Assembly (NCBI GenBank): GCA_025354985.1
Contig: JANXLU010000085.1
Location: forward strand, 62,001-126,000
Source: Chloroflexota bacterium
GTDB lineage: Bacteria > Chloroflexota > Anaerolineae > J036 > Brachytrichaceae
Reading direction: 5' to 3'
DNA length: 64,000 nucleotides
A model generated the notes under the pieces. That model was not told the DNA's origin, ran no database searches, and saw nothing but the letters and a program-made list of their open reading frames with translations. A program made the position numbers and the translations under genes. Within the stretch, counting starts at the first letter, position 1, and every line of letters begins with the position of its first letter. Shown one piece after another: positions 271 through 6,534 of this stretch.

Positions 271-1485
271 CTAAGATTTTCGAAGAATTGAAAATCCCAC
301 GAGTAGGGCACCGCTTGCCAGTGCGATATGCGCAAGATTGAACACCGGCATGGCGCCAATTTGAATAAAGTTTAATACGCCACCAGCCACGAGGCGGTCC
401 AATATGTTTGAAAGTAGCGCACCTAGCGCCACCGAGAGCCCGATTTTTTGGATTCGGGCTGCCGTGGTGGGCCCGGCTGAACTTGCAACTGCGAGAATTA
501 TCAGAAGGCTCGCAAGTGTGGCGGCGAGCAATTCAACCAATACCGGCAAAACCGTGCCGAATACGGTGGAAGGCGCCGCCACATCCAGAACACCAATTCG
601 AAGCAACCCACCCAAGAGTTGCCAAGGCGCCAGGCCGCGTATGATTATTTTTGACAACTGGTCTACAAAGAGGACGCCAAGGCCGATTGAAACCATGGGC
701 CCGATAGCCAAAACTTTCGACAGCGCCCAATCACCATTGGCACTTCTCGTTGCCTGAGTTCTGGAGGATAAGCTCGCCCCTGTGAAGCGCGTTGTGCCTT
801 GACCGGGCAGCTTATCAGTTGCAATGGTCATCCATTTTCCAAGCTCCACTTTGGCGCTCCATGATTCGGACAGGTTAATGGGTGTGAGCTTGGCGCCAAG
901 CATCTTATCGTCGCCGATGCAGACCAGCCTGACGTCGTCTGCTTGCAAAAAATAGCTTGCGGCTTCAAACAGTTCAGCCGCGCCTACCGAGCTCACTTTG
1001 TCCAAATGATCCAGGGCGATTATGAGCAGGCGTCCGACGGCCCCGACCACATTTTGGGCCAACTTTGGAAACGAGTTGCGGAAGCGGTTTGCAAAATTCC
1101 CAATAAGAATTTCAGATGCCTCGGGGGATTCCAATTTTGCTGCTTGAACGGCGGTAAGCAACTCTCCCCGAAGAGATGCAATGACGCCTTGATCACGCGG
1201 AACCGCGTTTTCACTCAACTTGTCCAAAACAACGCTCAGCAGGTGTTGCCAGGGCAGGAGGTATCCTGGCAACTCAGTTGCGTCGATCAGAACTACCATG
1301 CAGGTTCGTCCACCTGGTGTGGAAACGGTGGAGGACGATAAATCCTTGATCAGGGTTGTCTTTCCACTGCCCCTCGGACCAAACAACCCAAGCCAGGGCT
1401 TGCTCGCCGGGGATTCGAGATCACACGCCAGCAAAAGCTCGTTGCGCGCATTCTGTTGGTCTGTCGTTAGCCGTGAAGGTGACAT
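271..1485 (-). CDS. P-loop NTPase fused to a catalytically degenerate signal peptidase II (LspA)-like membrane domain
   Basis: 404 aa. Residues 1-220 form a KAP/AAA-like P-loop NTPase: Walker A GPRGSGKT (36-43), Walker B LLIIALDHLD (153-162) and a sensor-like LVCIGDD (187-193). Residues 255-404 are membrane-embedded and follow the LspA order: DQLSK (275-279), a degenerate 'NxGxxFG' box (APSTVFG, 304-310), then GALLSNILDR and VFNLAH. In active LspA the catalytic aspartates lie in VVDF and FNLAD. Here they are Asn372 (VLNF) and His386 (FNLAH), so lipoprotein signal peptidase activity is not expected. The gene ends near the convergent upstream fragment and starts 8 bases beyond the ileS stop on the same strand, so it is probably cotranscribed with ileS. 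Classical lspA is also often next to ileS, so this may be a diverged descendant of that locus. The function is unknown. An ATP-driven sensor or binder of lipoproteins or membrane substrates is speculative. Confidence 0.75.
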   Translation of the reverse strand: MSPSRLTTDQQNARNELLLACDLESPASKPWLGLFGPRGSGKTTLIKDLSSSTVSTPGGRTCMVVLIDATELPGYLLPWQHLLSVVLDKLSENAVPRDQGVIASLRGELLTAVQAAKLESPEASEILIGNFANRFRNSFPKLAQNVVGAVGRLLIIALDHLDKVSSVGAAELFEAASYFLQADDVRLVCIGDDKMLGAKLTPINLSESWSAKVELGKWMTIATDKLPGQGTTRFTGASLSSRTQATRSANGDWALSKVLAIGPMVSIGLGVLFVDQLSKIIIRGLAPWQLLGGLLRIGVLDVAAPSTVFGTVLPVLVELLAATLASLLIILAVASSAGPTTAARIQKIGLSVALGALLSNILDRLVAGGVLNFIQIGAMPVFNLAHIALASGALLVGFSILRKS

Positions 1486-1493
1486 TGATGCCG

Positions 1494-4400
1494 TTAAAGA
1501 CGCTCGCCCTTGGTTTTTTTGATTTTGATCGCGAGTTGTTCGCCATCGAACGCATCGGTGAGTGCATCCGGTGAGGCGTTGTCCAAAACGTTCATTTGAT
1601 CCGTGAGTGTCTCGTCCTTAATAAATCCCGCAAAGGATTTGATCGCGTTTGCAAGCCGAGGAGAAGCGGAATAGTCCAATGTGATTCTGTCAGACAGTTT
1701 GAATCCACTCGTTTTGCGCAAGTCATTTACTCTCCGGATCACCTCGCGTGCCAATCCCTCTTCGATCAGGGGTTCATCGAGTTGAGTATTTAACGCAACA
1801 ACTATTCCGCCACTTGCCTCCACGACCAACCCCGCACGTGGCTGTGGCTGCACGATTAATTCATGAGCTTCAAGTTGCTGACCGGCAATCACGATAGGCT
1901 GGCCGGCGCGAACACTGCGAACTATTTCAACCGAGTTCGATTCTGCCAATGCCGCCTTTACGGCCGGCATGTGATGCCCAAGGCGTTTCCCCAACTTTCG
2001 CAGATCAGGCACCAGTTTGTATGTAACCAAATCTTCTTCATTGGGCGCAAAGGAAACCGCCTTGACGTTCAATTCGGCTGCGATCATAGTCGCCTGCTTC
2101 GTGATAGCCCGTCTGGCATTCTCATCGGCTACCACGACGATTTCCTTGAGTGGTTGCCGGACTTTTAGGTTACTTTGAGACCGCAAGCTATGGCCCAGGT
2201 TTACGGTGGTTCTTGCCACCGCAACATCCCGGAGCAGGTTCTGTTCATTTGTGCTCAAGGCACGCGGCTCAGGATATGTTTGATGATGTACAGAGAAATG
2301 CGTATCAGCATGGCCGGTTACTGCGTCACGTTCGTGGAGGTTTTGCCAAATTGTTTCGGCCACAAAAGGAGCGATTGGTGCGATCATTTTGCACAATTCG
2401 GACAGCACCGAGTACAGTGTGCCATACGCGGCCAATTTGTCGTTGTCACGTTCAGCGCGCCAGAATCGCTCGCGATTCCTTCGGACGTACCAGTTGCTCA
2501 TATCGTCCACCAGCCTTTCCAGTGCCAGAATTGTCGTTCGCGCATCATATTTATCAAGCGCACCCACCACTACATTTCCCGTTTCGGCTACGCGTGCCAA
2601 AATCCAGGAATCCAACTGCGATTGCCCAACCTGAGAATCGTGCAGCAAATTTGGAGTCCAGCCGTCAATGTTGGCATAGGTTACGAAAAATGAGTATACG
2701 TTCCAAAGTGGAATGAACACATCTTTTCGAATGATGTCAAGAAGCTCGTATCCGAAATTCAGATTGTCATCGTAACGTTGGCGGGCATACACCCAACGCA
2801 TCATGTCGGCACCAGCTTTTTCGGCGGCTTCATTAAACTCAATCATGTTGCCGTCGCTCTTATGCATGGGTTTCCCCTTGCTATCCAGGAGGGTTGCGAA
2901 GCCAAGGATGGTGTCTGCTGGTCGACTGTTCGCCAGTACAGTACTCATTGCAATCATGGCATAAAACCAATTTCGGAATTGGCCTGGAAAACTCTCCGTC
3001 ATGAAGTCGCCCGGAAACCATTTGGCCCAATACTCCGGATCGGTTCGGTAGCGCAGCGTGCTTTGGCCGATGATGCCGGCATCGAGCCAGGGGTTGCCAA
3101 CATCCGGAACACGCGTTCCGAGTACGCCCGTTTTGGGATGCCGGATTTTGACCTTGTCGATAAATGGTCTGTGCGGGGTGTGACCCTCAAATTCGTCCCA
3201 GCCCTCCACTGCGCGGGCCTTTAACTCATCGTGACTGCCAATAACCTCAAAAGATCCATCAGGATATTCCCAAATAGGCAGCGCTAAACCCCAGTAGCGC
3301 TTTTTGGAGATCATCCAGTCGTGCATATTTACGAGCCAATCGTGTTCACGCTCTTTTCCAAACGCAGGCACCCAGTTTATGGTTTCGTTTACGGCCATCA
3401 TTTGGAGCCGCAACTCGTTCATGTTGATATACCATTCACCGACGAGCCGGTAAACAAGCGCAGACTTGCAGCGCCAGCAGTGGGCATAGCGGTGCTTGTA
3501 TTTTTCGCGCTTGTAAAAGAATCCCTTTTGTTTAAGCGCATTCTCAATTTGATCAGGAACGCTGTGGGCAAATTTGCCCGTAAATTCCCCAAAACCAGGC
3601 AGATATTCGCCTTCCTCGTTCAACGGTGCCACCATGGGCGAATTTACCAACTTGCCCAGCTTATGGTCTTCTGGTCCACATCCTGGCGCGATATGGACTA
3701 TGCCGGTTCCTTCCGCCTCGCCAACTTCATCCCAAGCAATTACGCAGTGGGCAAAAGTACCAGTACCGGGTGGCATTAATTTTGACCACTCTGCGTTGGC
3801 GTTCTTCCAGGCGTCGAGCTCGTCGAACAAGCCGGTGTAAGTCCAACCCTGCAGGCTGCCACCCATGAGCGTGCCAAGTAGGGTGTACTCGCCTCGCAGC
3901 ATTTTTAGCGTGCCGGTGCTCAGGATGTAAATCGCAACTTCACCGTCTCGGTGTGTTTGGCTTACAACCGAATATTCGAGCTTCGGCCCCACGGCCGCCA
4001 TTACATTTGCGGGCAAGGTCCACGGTGTGGTCGTCCACGCCAGCAGATACCTGGACTGCGATGATGCCCATCGGGTTGCCGCTTCACCATCCGTCCAAGT
4101 GATTCCCTCACTGGATGAGCTATCTAACCGAAACCTTACTGTAATACTGGGGTCTTCAACATCTTTATAGCCTTCCGTGTCTATTTCATGCTGGCTTATG
4201 CCAGTGCCGCACCGTGGGCACCACGGAATGCTGTCTGTTCCACGATATAGCCATCCACGGTTGCTACATTCTTTTAGGAACGTCCAAATAAGGTAGTTGT
4301 TCTCGTTTGAAAATGTAAAGTAACTTCCGCCAAGTTCATTCCCTAACAGACCCACGAGTTGCTCGGCCGTAGCTTCAACACATGCCTTGCCGCGCTTAAG

Positions 4401-4901
4401 GACCATTTTGGCTTGTGGCTCGCGGACGATTTTTTCGGCAAGTGTGCGCAACTCGTCCGTATCGTTCCAGTCCATCCAATAACCGAGCCGAATACTTTGC
4501 TCGGTTTGGGTTGCCGCATTAACCAAAACACGTTCCTTGCACAGATTGATAAATCTCTCGACACCAAACTTCTCTATGTCGCGTTTACTGGTGAAGCCAA
4601 GGTCTTTTTCGACATTCACCTCCACCCAGAGACCTTGACAATCGAACCCTTGTTGGTAGCGCAGCTCATATCCCTGCATGCTTTTATAGCGGTTCCAAAG
4701 GTCTTTGTATGTCCGGCCCCACGCATGGTGCACGCCCATGGGGTTGTTTGCCGTAATTGGACCGTCGATAAACGACCAGCGTTTACCGCTATTTAATCGA
4801 TTTTTTCGGGCTTGTTCGAAGGCACGGGAGGTCTTCCAAAAAGCAAGAACATCGCGTTCTTGCGCGGGAAAATCCACTTGATTGGATACTGGACGAAACA
4901 T
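1494..4901 (-). CDS. ileS: Isoleucyl-tRNA synthetase
   Basis: 1135 aa, a full-length class I aminoacyl-tRNA synthetase that charges tRNA-Ile in the cytoplasm. The HIGH-type motif is HHAWG (58-62) after DGPITANNPMG. The KMSKS-type motif is the variant PMHKSDGN at about residue 680. Zinc-type cysteines appear in CPRCGTG, and the editing (CP1) domain carries TTTPWTLPAN. The length and the HAWG signature match the longer IleS lineage that also occurs in archaea and eukaryotes. A hexamer TAAAAT lies about seven bases before the ATG, next to an AAGGA, so transcription may start at or very near the start codon. The rRNA methyltransferase gene ends 13 bases upstream on the same strand. Confidence 0.96.
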   Translation of the reverse strand: MFRPVSNQVDFPAQERDVLAFWKTSRAFEQARKNRLNSGKRWSFIDGPITANNPMGVHHAWGRTYKDLWNRYKSMQGYELRYQQGFDCQGLWVEVNVEKDLGFTSKRDIEKFGVERFINLCKERVLVNAATQTEQSIRLGYWMDWNDTDELRTLAEKIVREPQAKMVLKRGKACVEATAEQLVGLLGNELGGSYFTFSNENNYLIWTFLKECSNRGWLYRGTDSIPWCPRCGTGISQHEIDTEGYKDVEDPSITVRFRLDSSSSEGITWTDGEAATRWASSQSRYLLAWTTTPWTLPANVMAAVGPKLEYSVVSQTHRDGEVAIYILSTGTLKMLRGEYTLLGTLMGGSLQGWTYTGLFDELDAWKNANAEWSKLMPPGTGTFAHCVIAWDEVGEAEGTGIVHIAPGCGPEDHKLGKLVNSPMVAPLNEEGEYLPGFGEFTGKFAHSVPDQIENALKQKGFFYKREKYKHRYAHCWRCKSALVYRLVGEWYINMNELRLQMMAVNETINWVPAFGKEREHDWLVNMHDWMISKKRYWGLALPIWEYPDGSFEVIGSHDELKARAVEGWDEFEGHTPHRPFIDKVKIRHPKTGVLGTRVPDVGNPWLDAGIIGQSTLRYRTDPEYWAKWFPGDFMTESFPGQFRNWFYAMIAMSTVLANSRPADTILGFATLLDSKGKPMHKSDGNMIEFNEAAEKAGADMMRWVYARQRYDDNLNFGYELLDIIRKDVFIPLWNVYSFFVTYANIDGWTPNLLHDSQVGQSQLDSWILARVAETGNVVVGALDKYDARTTILALERLVDDMSNWYVRRNRERFWRAERDNDKLAAYGTLYSVLSELCKMIAPIAPFVAETIWQNLHERDAVTGHADTHFSVHHQTYPEPRALSTNEQNLLRDVAVARTTVNLGHSLRSQSNLKVRQPLKEIVVVADENARRAITKQATMIAAELNVKAVSFAPNEEDLVTYKLVPDLRKLGKRLGHHMPAVKAALAESNSVEIVRSVRAGQPIVIAGQQLEAHELIVQPQPRAGLVVEASGGIVVALNTQLDEPLIEEGLAREVIRRVNDLRKTSGFKLSDRITLDYSASPRLANAIKSFAGFIKDETLTDQMNVLDNASPDALTDAFDGEQLAIKIKKTKGERL

Positions 4902-4914
4902 TCCTTAAATTTTA

Positions 4915-5742
4915 TCAAAGTGAGGCCTGACGGGCGGCCTCAAATAATAGGATGCCGCACGCCACCGACGCATTTAGTGATTCGACTTTGTTTGCAAGAG
5001 GTATGGATACGTAGTGGGTAATGCACGTTACGGCGTCCGAACTCAGGCCTTGCGCTTCTGCTCCAATGACCAAAAAGGTTGGCGATCGCGCGTGCCAAAG
5101 AAAATTTGAATGAGCCATTTGACCGCCAGCTTGTGCGGCTATTACCCGGCCGGCTGTACTGTGCGAGGTGAAAGTCGATTGCATGGCGCGAAAACTCGCC
5201 CAGTCCATTTCGAGCAAGGGAATACGCGCATGTGCGCCCATGGCACCCCGAACAACCTTTGGATTCCAGACATCCACCGAACCGGCCATAATGATTGCGC
5301 CCGGGCAGCCCGCCGCGGCAGCAGAACGCAAACAGGCGCCCAGATTGCCAGGTTCCCGCAATCCATCCAAAATTAATATCGGCATATTGGTCGAATCGGT
5401 TGCTGATGACATTAACTCTAAACCAGCATCTGGCTCGCGTTTGGGCTTGGAGAAAATTGTGAGAACTCCCGGTGGTGACAACTCATCCGTCATTGACTGC
5501 ATGACCTCGTCGGACACGATCGTGACCGCTGAACTGAGGTGTTCAAAACACCAGTCGGATTTGTCCGTTACTGCAAACACCTCGGCTGGCTGAAGACCTG
5601 CGTCTACCAGATCCTTGCACAATCTGGCGCCTTCAGCCAAAAATCTCCCGTCATGCTGGCGGACTTTACGGTCATCCCGAATTTGACGCGCCAGTTTTAC
5701 TCTGGCGTTTGCCGGCGAAGTAATCACGCGTGCGATTATCAT
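4915..5742 (-). CDS. TrmH/SpoU family RNA 2'-O-methyltransferase (23S rRNA type)
   Basis: 275 aa. The N-terminal substrate-binding domain begins ITSPANARVKLARQ and has DGRFLAEGARLCKDL, typical of TrmH/RlmB-like proteins that methylate ribose 2'-OH in rRNA or tRNA. The C-terminal SPOUT knot has its three motifs: LDGLREPGNLGACLRSA, FLVIGAEAQGLS and SIPLANKVESLNASVACG. These bind S-adenosylmethionine and form the dimer. The exact target nucleotide cannot be told from sequence. The gene is probably the first of an operon with ileS downstream, and it is divergent from the CPBP protease gene with only about 25 bases between starts. Confidence 0.9.
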   Translation of the reverse strand: MIIARVITSPANARVKLARQIRDDRKVRQHDGRFLAEGARLCKDLVDAGLQPAEVFAVTDKSDWCFEHLSSAVTIVSDEVMQSMTDELSPPGVLTIFSKPKREPDAGLELMSSATDSTNMPILILDGLREPGNLGACLRSAAAAGCPGAIIMAGSVDVWNPKVVRGAMGAHARIPLLEMDWASFRAMQSTFTSHSTAGRVIAAQAGGQMAHSNFLWHARSPTFLVIGAEAQGLSSDAVTCITHYVSIPLANKVESLNASVACGILLFEAARQASL

Positions 5743-5758
5743 CCTGAACTAAACTGCG

Positions 5759-5791
5759 ATGGCAGTATGGAAGGTGAAATCAGTCACTTAA
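5759..5791 (+). CDS. Possible 10-residue leader ORF overlapping an alternative CPBP protease start
   Basis: A ten-codon frame (MAVWKVKSVT) ends with TAA at 5789-5791, and the last A of that stop is the first base of an in-frame ATG (5791) of the downstream protease. This TAATG junction is the type used for translational coupling. It could equally be chance, because the protease frame also has an ATG at 5767. There is no independent sign of expression. Confidence 0.2.
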   Translation: MAVWKVKSVT

Positions 5792-6534
5792 TGGATGAAC
5801 CGCGAGGCATGGGCTGGTTTCGCCTTGCCCTGGATTTCGCACTGTATACGTGCGTATTTGCGATATTTGTCATTGTCTCGGGACTACTCGCATGCCTGAA
5901 CGTGGTCAATCCTGCGCTTCGACTTGCGATGGCACTTGCGTGCAACATCGGAATTCTCGGCGGTGGCACATTGTTGGTAAATCTCTGGCGCAATACTTTT
6001 GGTCTGGAGAAAATTGGGATTTGGCCGATCAAGGTGGACTGGACATGGCTAGGCACTGGTCTCGGTCTGGCTGTGGTTTTGATGCCAGTGCGGGTCGGGG
6101 TTGGTTTGCTTGCGGCGTATCTATTTGAAGGTGGCATCGACAGCGTGCAGCGCAGGAGCGACCTTTTACTTGGGGGAACATCATTCAACCTCATTGTCGC
6201 GACGCTTGGCTTGGTTGGTGCGGGAATTTTAGCTCCTATAGCGGAGGAATTGTTGTTTCGTGGCGCGATGTATTCTCTGTTTCGCCGGCGGATGGCGTTC
6301 TGGCCGGCGGCTATCATCAGTGCGGCATTGTTTGCAGCCGGGCATGCTGATAGTGTTGCGGTAGTGGCCGCCAGCTTTATTCTGGGCGTTGTAAATGCCT
6401 GGCTTTTGGAAAAAAGCCGGACATTGTGGACGCCAATACTTCTACATATCTTAAATAATTCTATTGCTGTAATTCTGTTGCAGGTTATTCTCTTACTGCG
6501 AACCATTTTGCCGGCAGCTACTCCGCCAGCTTAA
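5767..6534 (+). CDS. CPBP-family intramembrane metalloprotease
   Basis: 255 aa from the ATG at 5767. The open frame extends upstream, but an earlier start would overlap the divergent methyltransferase gene; ATG 5791 is an alternative. The protein is strongly hydrophobic with about six to eight membrane segments. It has the CPBP (Abi, Rce1-like) motifs EELLFRGAMYSLFRRR (EExxxR), then GHADSVAVVAASFILG and a terminal HILNNS, which supply the glutamate and histidine metal/active-site residues. Family members cleave membrane or prenylated proteins, or act as protease-like immunity factors; the substrate here is unknown. No Shine-Dalgarno sequence precedes either start. Confidence 0.85.
   Translation: MEGEISHLMDEPRGMGWFRLALDFALYTCVFAIFVIVSGLLACLNVVNPALRLAMALACNIGILGGGTLLVNLWRNTFGLEKIGIWPIKVDWTWLGTGLGLAVVLMPVRVGVGLLAAYLFEGGIDSVQRRSDLLLGGTSFNLIVATLGLVGAGILAPIAEELLFRGAMYSLFRRRMAFWPAAIISAALFAAGHADSVAVVAASFILGVVNAWLLEKSRTLWTPILLHILNNSIAVILLQVILLLRTILPAATPPA

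Follow-up and report, generated by a model that had tools for sequence, protein, structure and literature searches.

What a copy of signal peptidase II (LspA) may still be doing once both of its catalytic aspartates have been replaced, and why it should be carried behind a P-loop NTPase domain, is the question raised by a gene found at positions 271–1485, on the minus strand, of the window (i.e. the whole stretch of 64,000 nucleotides from a Chloroflexota bacterium that was analysed). The gene encodes a protein of 404 residues (ATG start; the stop codon is included in the coordinates), and its nearest upstream neighbour, 8 bp away and in the same orientation, is ileS (1494–4901). An initial annotation of the window had described the open reading frame as such a fusion and as a neighbour of ileS, and both observations were reproduced; it had also suggested that a lipoprotein-binding fold deprived of cleavage could make an ATP-driven sensor or carrier of lipoproteins.

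An NTPase domain followed by a predicted signal peptidase II fold

The AF2 model, the fold search and Pfam assign residues 1–217 (835–1485; this and all other features of the gene lie on the minus strand) to a P-loop NTPase domain that is KAP/AAA-like. Walker A (GPRGSGKT, residues 36–43; 1357–1380) and the Walker B region (LLIIALDHLD, residues 153–162, including D159 and D162; 1000–1029) are intact in the window copy, as had been noted from the start. A predicted disordered linker follows (residues 218–258; 712–834; pLDDT <50), at the position of which the alignment places a further segment in many relatives outside the window's genus; in a second model, that of the congener L033, this stretch is predicted to be disordered as well. 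The pseudo-LspA domain, with four predicted membrane helices, spans residues 261–404 (274–705) on the basis of PF01252, fold search and hydropathy. The Pfam model Peptidase_A8 (PF01252) matches residues 269–400 with 45.4 bits against a cut-off of 25, and the NCBIfam lspA equivalog TIGR00077 scores 35 bits, below the required 73.95. The motifs appear in the signal peptidase II order initially described, i.e. DQLSK (residues 275–279; 649–663), SNILDR (residues 359–364; 394–411), VLNF, which contains N372, and FNLAH, which ends with H386.

The AF2 model, computed with 24 sequences (mean pLDDT 83.2, pTM 0.56), consists of two largely confident parts joined by the 218–258 stretch, the NTPase being mostly above 90 and the LspA part having its lowest values (63–70) around residues 281–310. 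When the model was submitted to Foldseek, the matches were RdrA-type ATPases and LspA. The LspA fold is predicted for the C-terminal half, with residues 261–403 superposing on 5dir_C (Z 16.3, 133 aligned, rmsd 2.3) and a further match to 6ryo_A (Z 15.6, 144 aligned, rmsd 3.8). For residues 1–219 the best structural match is RdrA of the RADAR system (8hr8_H, Z 14.3), followed by MuB (Z 13.5) and ORC-type chains (about 12 and less), and, these scores being close together, no specific kinship is claimed for the NTPase.

The same caution applies to the family assignment. In Pfam, the NTPase half of the window protein reaches 28.3 bits with AAA_16 and 17.3 bits with KAP_NTPase (PF07693), both below the respective cut-offs (20 for KAP). 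KAP proteins typically have transmembrane segments of their own within the NTPase domain; in the window protein no such insert is present, as hydropathy peaks start at residue 253 and the model has none in 1–217, and the domain is therefore called KAP-like rather than classed as a KAP protein. Profile matches to KAP are common to most fusion members (21 of 24 at E ≤ 0.01; 20 of 27 loci above the cut-off, the window's not among them; bits of 40.5 in L033, 35.2 in L042, 20.9 in L038 and, below the cut-off, 17.9 in L052), the model being a loose test that also finds matches in 13 of 14 control genomes, in nine of them above the cut-off. The fusion differs from KAP NTPases in that its membrane part is the C-terminal LspA fold and in that Walker A is lost in a part of its members. 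Six KAP-FGE proteins of other Anaerolineae (L109–L114) have an NTPase and a following segment that are matched by the fusion profiles, but they are longer, FGE-sulfatase domains were found in the two that were scanned (L111 and L113), and no LspA part was found in any of the six; in a phmmer search with L111, matches to solved chains fell only outside its KAP part. A place in phage defence was considered and set aside, since the gene invariably accompanies ileS; PADLOC matches are weak (mad8 at 8.6e-5 for the window protein, QatA at 1e-6 and PifA at 0.0097 for L042, weaker ones for others).

A lost catalytic dyad in a conserved pocket

The catalytic dyad of Staphylococcus aureus LspA is formed by Asp118 and Asp136, and 14 residues are highly conserved, according to the excerpted text of PMC6952399. 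Profile alignment of the window protein to the LspA chains 9emz, 5dir and 6ryo pairs residue 372 with the aspartate of VVDF and residue 386 with that of FNxAD, so that the replacement of the two catalytic residues by Asn372 (codon 370–372) and His386 (codon 328–330), on which the initial annotation had been built, is confirmed. By motif mapping, nine of the S. aureus residues are kept (Asp21, Lys25, Asn106, Asp109, Arg110, Val116, Phe132, Asn133 and Ala135), Gly102 is changed to Ala, Asp118 to Asn and Asp136 to His, and the Asn52/Gly54 box is gone.

These changes are not a peculiarity of the window copy. In the 25 full-length fusion copies that form the conservation set, the window's included, His386 is invariant and residue 372 is Asn in 21, with Ala, Thr, His and Asp once each; aspartate thus occurs at 372 in one copy only (L056) and at 386 in none, as compared with both aspartates, by pattern, in all 41 ordinary LspA rows (the 23 of the motif count below, four more of the lineage and 14 from outside). 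D275 and D363 are present in 25/25 fusions, K279 in 24 and R364 in 20. With the dyad gone, cleavage by LspA chemistry is not expected, given what is established for this aspartyl protease. The NxGAA box, the loss of which had also been noted initially, is absent in 25/25 fusions, and all 23 LspA proteins counted (22 neighbours and the LspA of the window's own genome) have NxGAA or NxGAT. The stretch from DxxxK to DR, which carries the beta-cradle strands and the extracytoplasmic loop in LspA, spans 62–94 residues from D275 to D363 in the fusions versus 88–93 in the 41 LspA rows, and does not exceed 83 in 22 of the 25. A general shortening of the helix 1–2 stretch would be too wide a description, as the window copy (88) and its two congeners L033 and L034 (94 by alignment, the two long ones) are not shortened. 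Because the Asn box is lost throughout and its stretch is shorter in 22/25, the pose in which LspA binds its substrate cannot have been preserved without change. The claim that a lipoprotein-binding fold is retained holds for the fold as predicted, and retention of the binding mode is uncertain.

Conservation at the twelve positions of the former pocket far exceeds that of the remaining domain. Their mean majority identity is 0.82 versus 0.48 for the other columns of residues 262–404, a value not reached by any of 20 000 random sets of twelve, and with one copy per genus the figures are 0.77 versus 0.46, again with 0/20 000; since such draws model neither structure nor phylogeny, they establish a strong excess, not its cause. 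The dN/dS values in seven pairs, some of them with saturated dS, are 0.07–0.27 for the NTPase and 0.19–0.45 for the pseudo-LspA segment (the end of the linker included; one pair gave no value for the middle segment), the latter exceeding the former in six of the seven; true LspA gives 0.06–0.19 in the six pairs that have one. To judge from these substitution rates, both halves of the fusion are kept by purifying selection. A lone mutant or a decaying gene is ruled out by the invariance of H386 and by dN/dS values of at most 0.45 for both segments in all seven pairs.

The NTPase motifs themselves are less constant. The Walker A pattern GxxxxGK[ST] fits 17 of the 25 fusions and is lost in eight (L043, L050–L054, L056 and L057; L053 retains GKS but has one residue fewer), one genus having lost it in each of its four full-length copies (L050, L052, L054 and L056). 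D159 of Walker B is found in 23/25, and four columns of the domain never vary (W79, F131, Y178 and F179). In the L052/L056 pair, which lacks the P-loop, the dN/dS of the NTPase is 0.07, with dS saturated at 2.3. With Walker A lost in these copies, ATP hydrolysis cannot be needed everywhere, although both halves of the protein are kept by selection.

Neighbourhood, distribution and origin

The fusion is present in 27 of the 28 genomes of the window's order (i.e. with homologues in 26 others). The one genome without it, G003, has an assembly of 78% completeness in which ileS finds only a distantly related synthetase (25–27% identity), an indication that the locus is missing from that assembly. 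With matches in 27/28 genomes and the replacements common to the relatives, as the initial annotation had proposed to check, chance does not explain the feature. Among the named members are Candidatus Roseilinea sp. NK_OTU-006 and a Thermoflexales bacterium, Ca. Roseilinea being placed by the NCBI taxonomy within Ca. Thermofonsia Clade 3 of the Chloroflexota; a scan of contigs with an alignment gave ten loci with names, and one with a single protein confirmed none of 74 stretches. Outside family f1, the whole architecture was not seen among the matches listed in profile searches of 298 genomes of the class and 301 of the phylum (partly overlapping sets), which cover either the LspA part or the NTPase part (the latter in G234, G261, G159 and others); four candidates were scored per genome in these searches, one of which was run at E ≤ 1e-15, so that rare fusions elsewhere could be missed. 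Within the lineage, the Peptidase_A8 cut-off is reached by 22 of 27 loci (two of the five failing ones are truncated at contig ends), the model is missed at E 0.01 by three of 24 members, and no listing at E ≤ 0.001 was obtained for the loci of G005, G014 and G015 (L051, L053 and L057).

Each of the 27 fusion genes is preceded by a co-oriented ileS, the distance between the two ranging from an overlap to 316 bp; overlaps of more than a few bases, e.g. in L040, L036 and L046, are an artefact of beginning the open frame at its first possible start. A true lspA lies downstream on the same strand in 22 of the 27, from overlapping to 95 bp apart, which provides a genomic link to lipoprotein processing. 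Among the remaining five, the contig ends near or inside the fusion in G002, G004 and G007 (the lspA of G002 is on another contig), and the window's genome (G000) and G001 have lspA elsewhere. Further along the window, an open reading frame at 5539–6534 on the plus strand contains an EELLFRG motif and presumably resembles a CPBP-type membrane protease; it overlaps the start of a SpoU-type methylase gene on the opposite strand (4915–5742), so that its true start is probably further in.

The second, intact lspA that the initial annotation had suggested looking for was found in the window's genome on contig 47, adjoining ligA (C47:7399-7824; L001 1459-1983, minus strand), with both aspartates. 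This LspA is divergent, scoring 85.8 bits versus at least 122.9 for the best LspA of each relative having one, and it falls outside the LspA clade of the lineage, on a long branch. In the congeners G001–G003, lspA stands beside two genes, which we take to be MgtC-like and glycosyltransferase-like; a search with the MgtC-like protein, carried out with no positive control, found no match in the window's genome, the divergent LspA of which may be a replacement. An additional LspA in G008, on another contig (L124 2934–3428), groups with LspA from outside the family (88/85, long branch) and may be contamination.

The 25 fusion domains form one clade (support 100/99) apart from the 41 LspA rows; the window row is flagged as a long branch and, with long branches flagged, the join of the clade to LspA is unsure. 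The two dyad positions are 14 residues apart in 24 of the 25 fusions and 13 in one; in LspA the spacing counted by script is 14 in 10 of 14 rows outside the family and 20 in 23 of 27 lineage rows, the script miscounting L107, L108, L122 and L123 owing to a second aspartate-phenylalanine (by eye 14, 14, 20 and 20). A recent tandem duplicate of the lineage's lspA is unlikely, as the fusion clade lies outside the lineage LspA and the dyad spacing differs. Apparently, an LspA copy lost its dyad and was joined behind the NTPase before the Ca. Roseilinea lineage diversified into genera. Tandem copies of lspA occur elsewhere: two of the additional lspA genes of Myxococcus xanthus are arranged in this way, and its four LspA proteins, unlike the fusion, all have peptidase activity, complementing an Escherichia coli lspA depletion strain that lacks lpp, no NTPase fusion being named for them in the excerpted text of PMC8689077. 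A tandem pair of LspA genes, each encoding both aspartates, was also observed in G157 (L106 852–1349 and 1353–1895), and similar tandem matches occur in G381, G486 and G548.

Receptor, anchor or partner

The reading favoured here, at a probability of about 0.4, is that the fusion is a conserved pseudoprotease, which would act as a receptor or regulator of lipoprotein maturation. Rather than cutting, this second LspA copy probably has a sensing or regulatory role. With LspA (PF01252; PDB 5DIR, 6RYO and 9EMZ) it has in common the four-helix fold and the DQ..K, N..DR and FN.A motifs, and differs from it in the exchange of the catalytic aspartates for Asn and His, in the missing Asn box and in the NTPase in front. 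Once the dyad had been lost and the copy joined behind a KAP/AAA-like NTPase domain, the remodelled pocket would still bind a ligand without cutting it, most likely the signal-peptide helix or the lipobox of a diacylated prolipoprotein, or else signal peptides that the true LspA has set free; as the gene is found near lspA in most of the lineage, the ligand is probably a precursor of a lipoprotein, the signal peptide of such a precursor or LspA itself. Occupancy of the pocket would be signalled to the NTPase domain, which would work on the cytoplasmic side as a switch gated by nucleotide or as a scaffold and, in lineages that have lost the P-loop, may serve only as a binding or assembly platform. 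The N-terminal domain, which we take to lie on the cytoplasmic side, could pass the state of the pocket inward. Such a placement fits the dyad of true LspA, which lies towards the outer surface of the membrane according to the excerpt of PMC6952399. The logic would be comparable to that of the iRhom pseudoproteases, which also have the fold of a membrane protease without catalysis and recognise transmembrane domains of their clients (PMC7618786, in excerpt), but their fold and organisms are unrelated and the likeness is one of analogy only. Counting against a pseudoprotease of this kind are the loss of the Asn box, the weak Peptidase_A8 matches of some copies and the higher dN/dS of the pseudo-LspA segment, together with the absence of lspA beside the fusion in G000 and G001, the divergence of the true LspA of G000 and the long branch of the window row.

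The same remodelling of the box and its stretch, the faster evolution of the segment and the lack of a transmembrane insert in the window NTPase would suit a pseudo-LspA part that merely anchors a KAP-type NTPase in the membrane, with no specific binding. An anchor would need neither the conserved pocket positions nor a histidine at 386 in every copy; since the pocket has been retained and its new histidine never varies, a binding site is the likelier of the two, and the anchor appears rather improbable overall. That invariant histidine, along with D275 and D363, could alternatively belong to a site rebuilt, together with N372, for another reaction, as a catalytic or metal-binding centre of a new kind. 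In ordinary LspA, the residues corresponding to D275 and D363 are conserved as well, so that only H386 is new among the three, and with position 372 being Ala, Thr, His or Asp in four copies and R364 varying in five, such a rebuilt site is improbable.

Other readings give the fusion a binding partner or a cargo. Dead copies that regulate live ones are a known pattern among pseudoenzymes, which would be matched by a fusion that pairs with the true LspA or with the substrate complex of LspA and adjusts its activity or position under the control of the NTPase. The ileS-fusion-lspA order, with overlapping or close genes at 22/27 loci, agrees with this. LspA is, on the other hand, a single-chain enzyme; lspA is not adjacent in G000 and G001 and lies on another contig in G002; and the fusion persists in G000 although the LspA there is divergent, on a long branch outside the lineage clade, all of which makes a partner of LspA unlikely. 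The ATP-driven carriage or extraction of lipoproteins, as initially proposed, would draw on the intact Walker A and B of the window copy and on the frequency of Walker A and D159 among the relatives. It is not supported as a general mechanism, because Walker A is lost in 8/25 fusions while H386 is kept in all; the loss throughout the full-length copies of a genus and the strong selection on the P-loop-less NTPase of L052 and L056 render it very improbable. The other half of that proposal, a sensor role, may still apply.

To return to the conserved pseudoprotease, regulatory members of this kind are known for rhomboids, and neither a pseudo-LspA/NTPase fusion nor a signal peptidase II pseudoprotease was found described in the open-licence literature searched. 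Only tentatively, the fusion may be the first conserved pseudoprotease of signal peptidase II, in one lineage of Chloroflexota, acting as a nucleotide-gated receptor that reads prolipoproteins or cut signal peptides and thereby controls lipoprotein maturation or an envelope response. Where selection maintains a dead LspA next to a live one, binding is uncoupled from cleavage in an antibiotic target enzyme, and a level at which the processing of lipoproteins is controlled could come to light.
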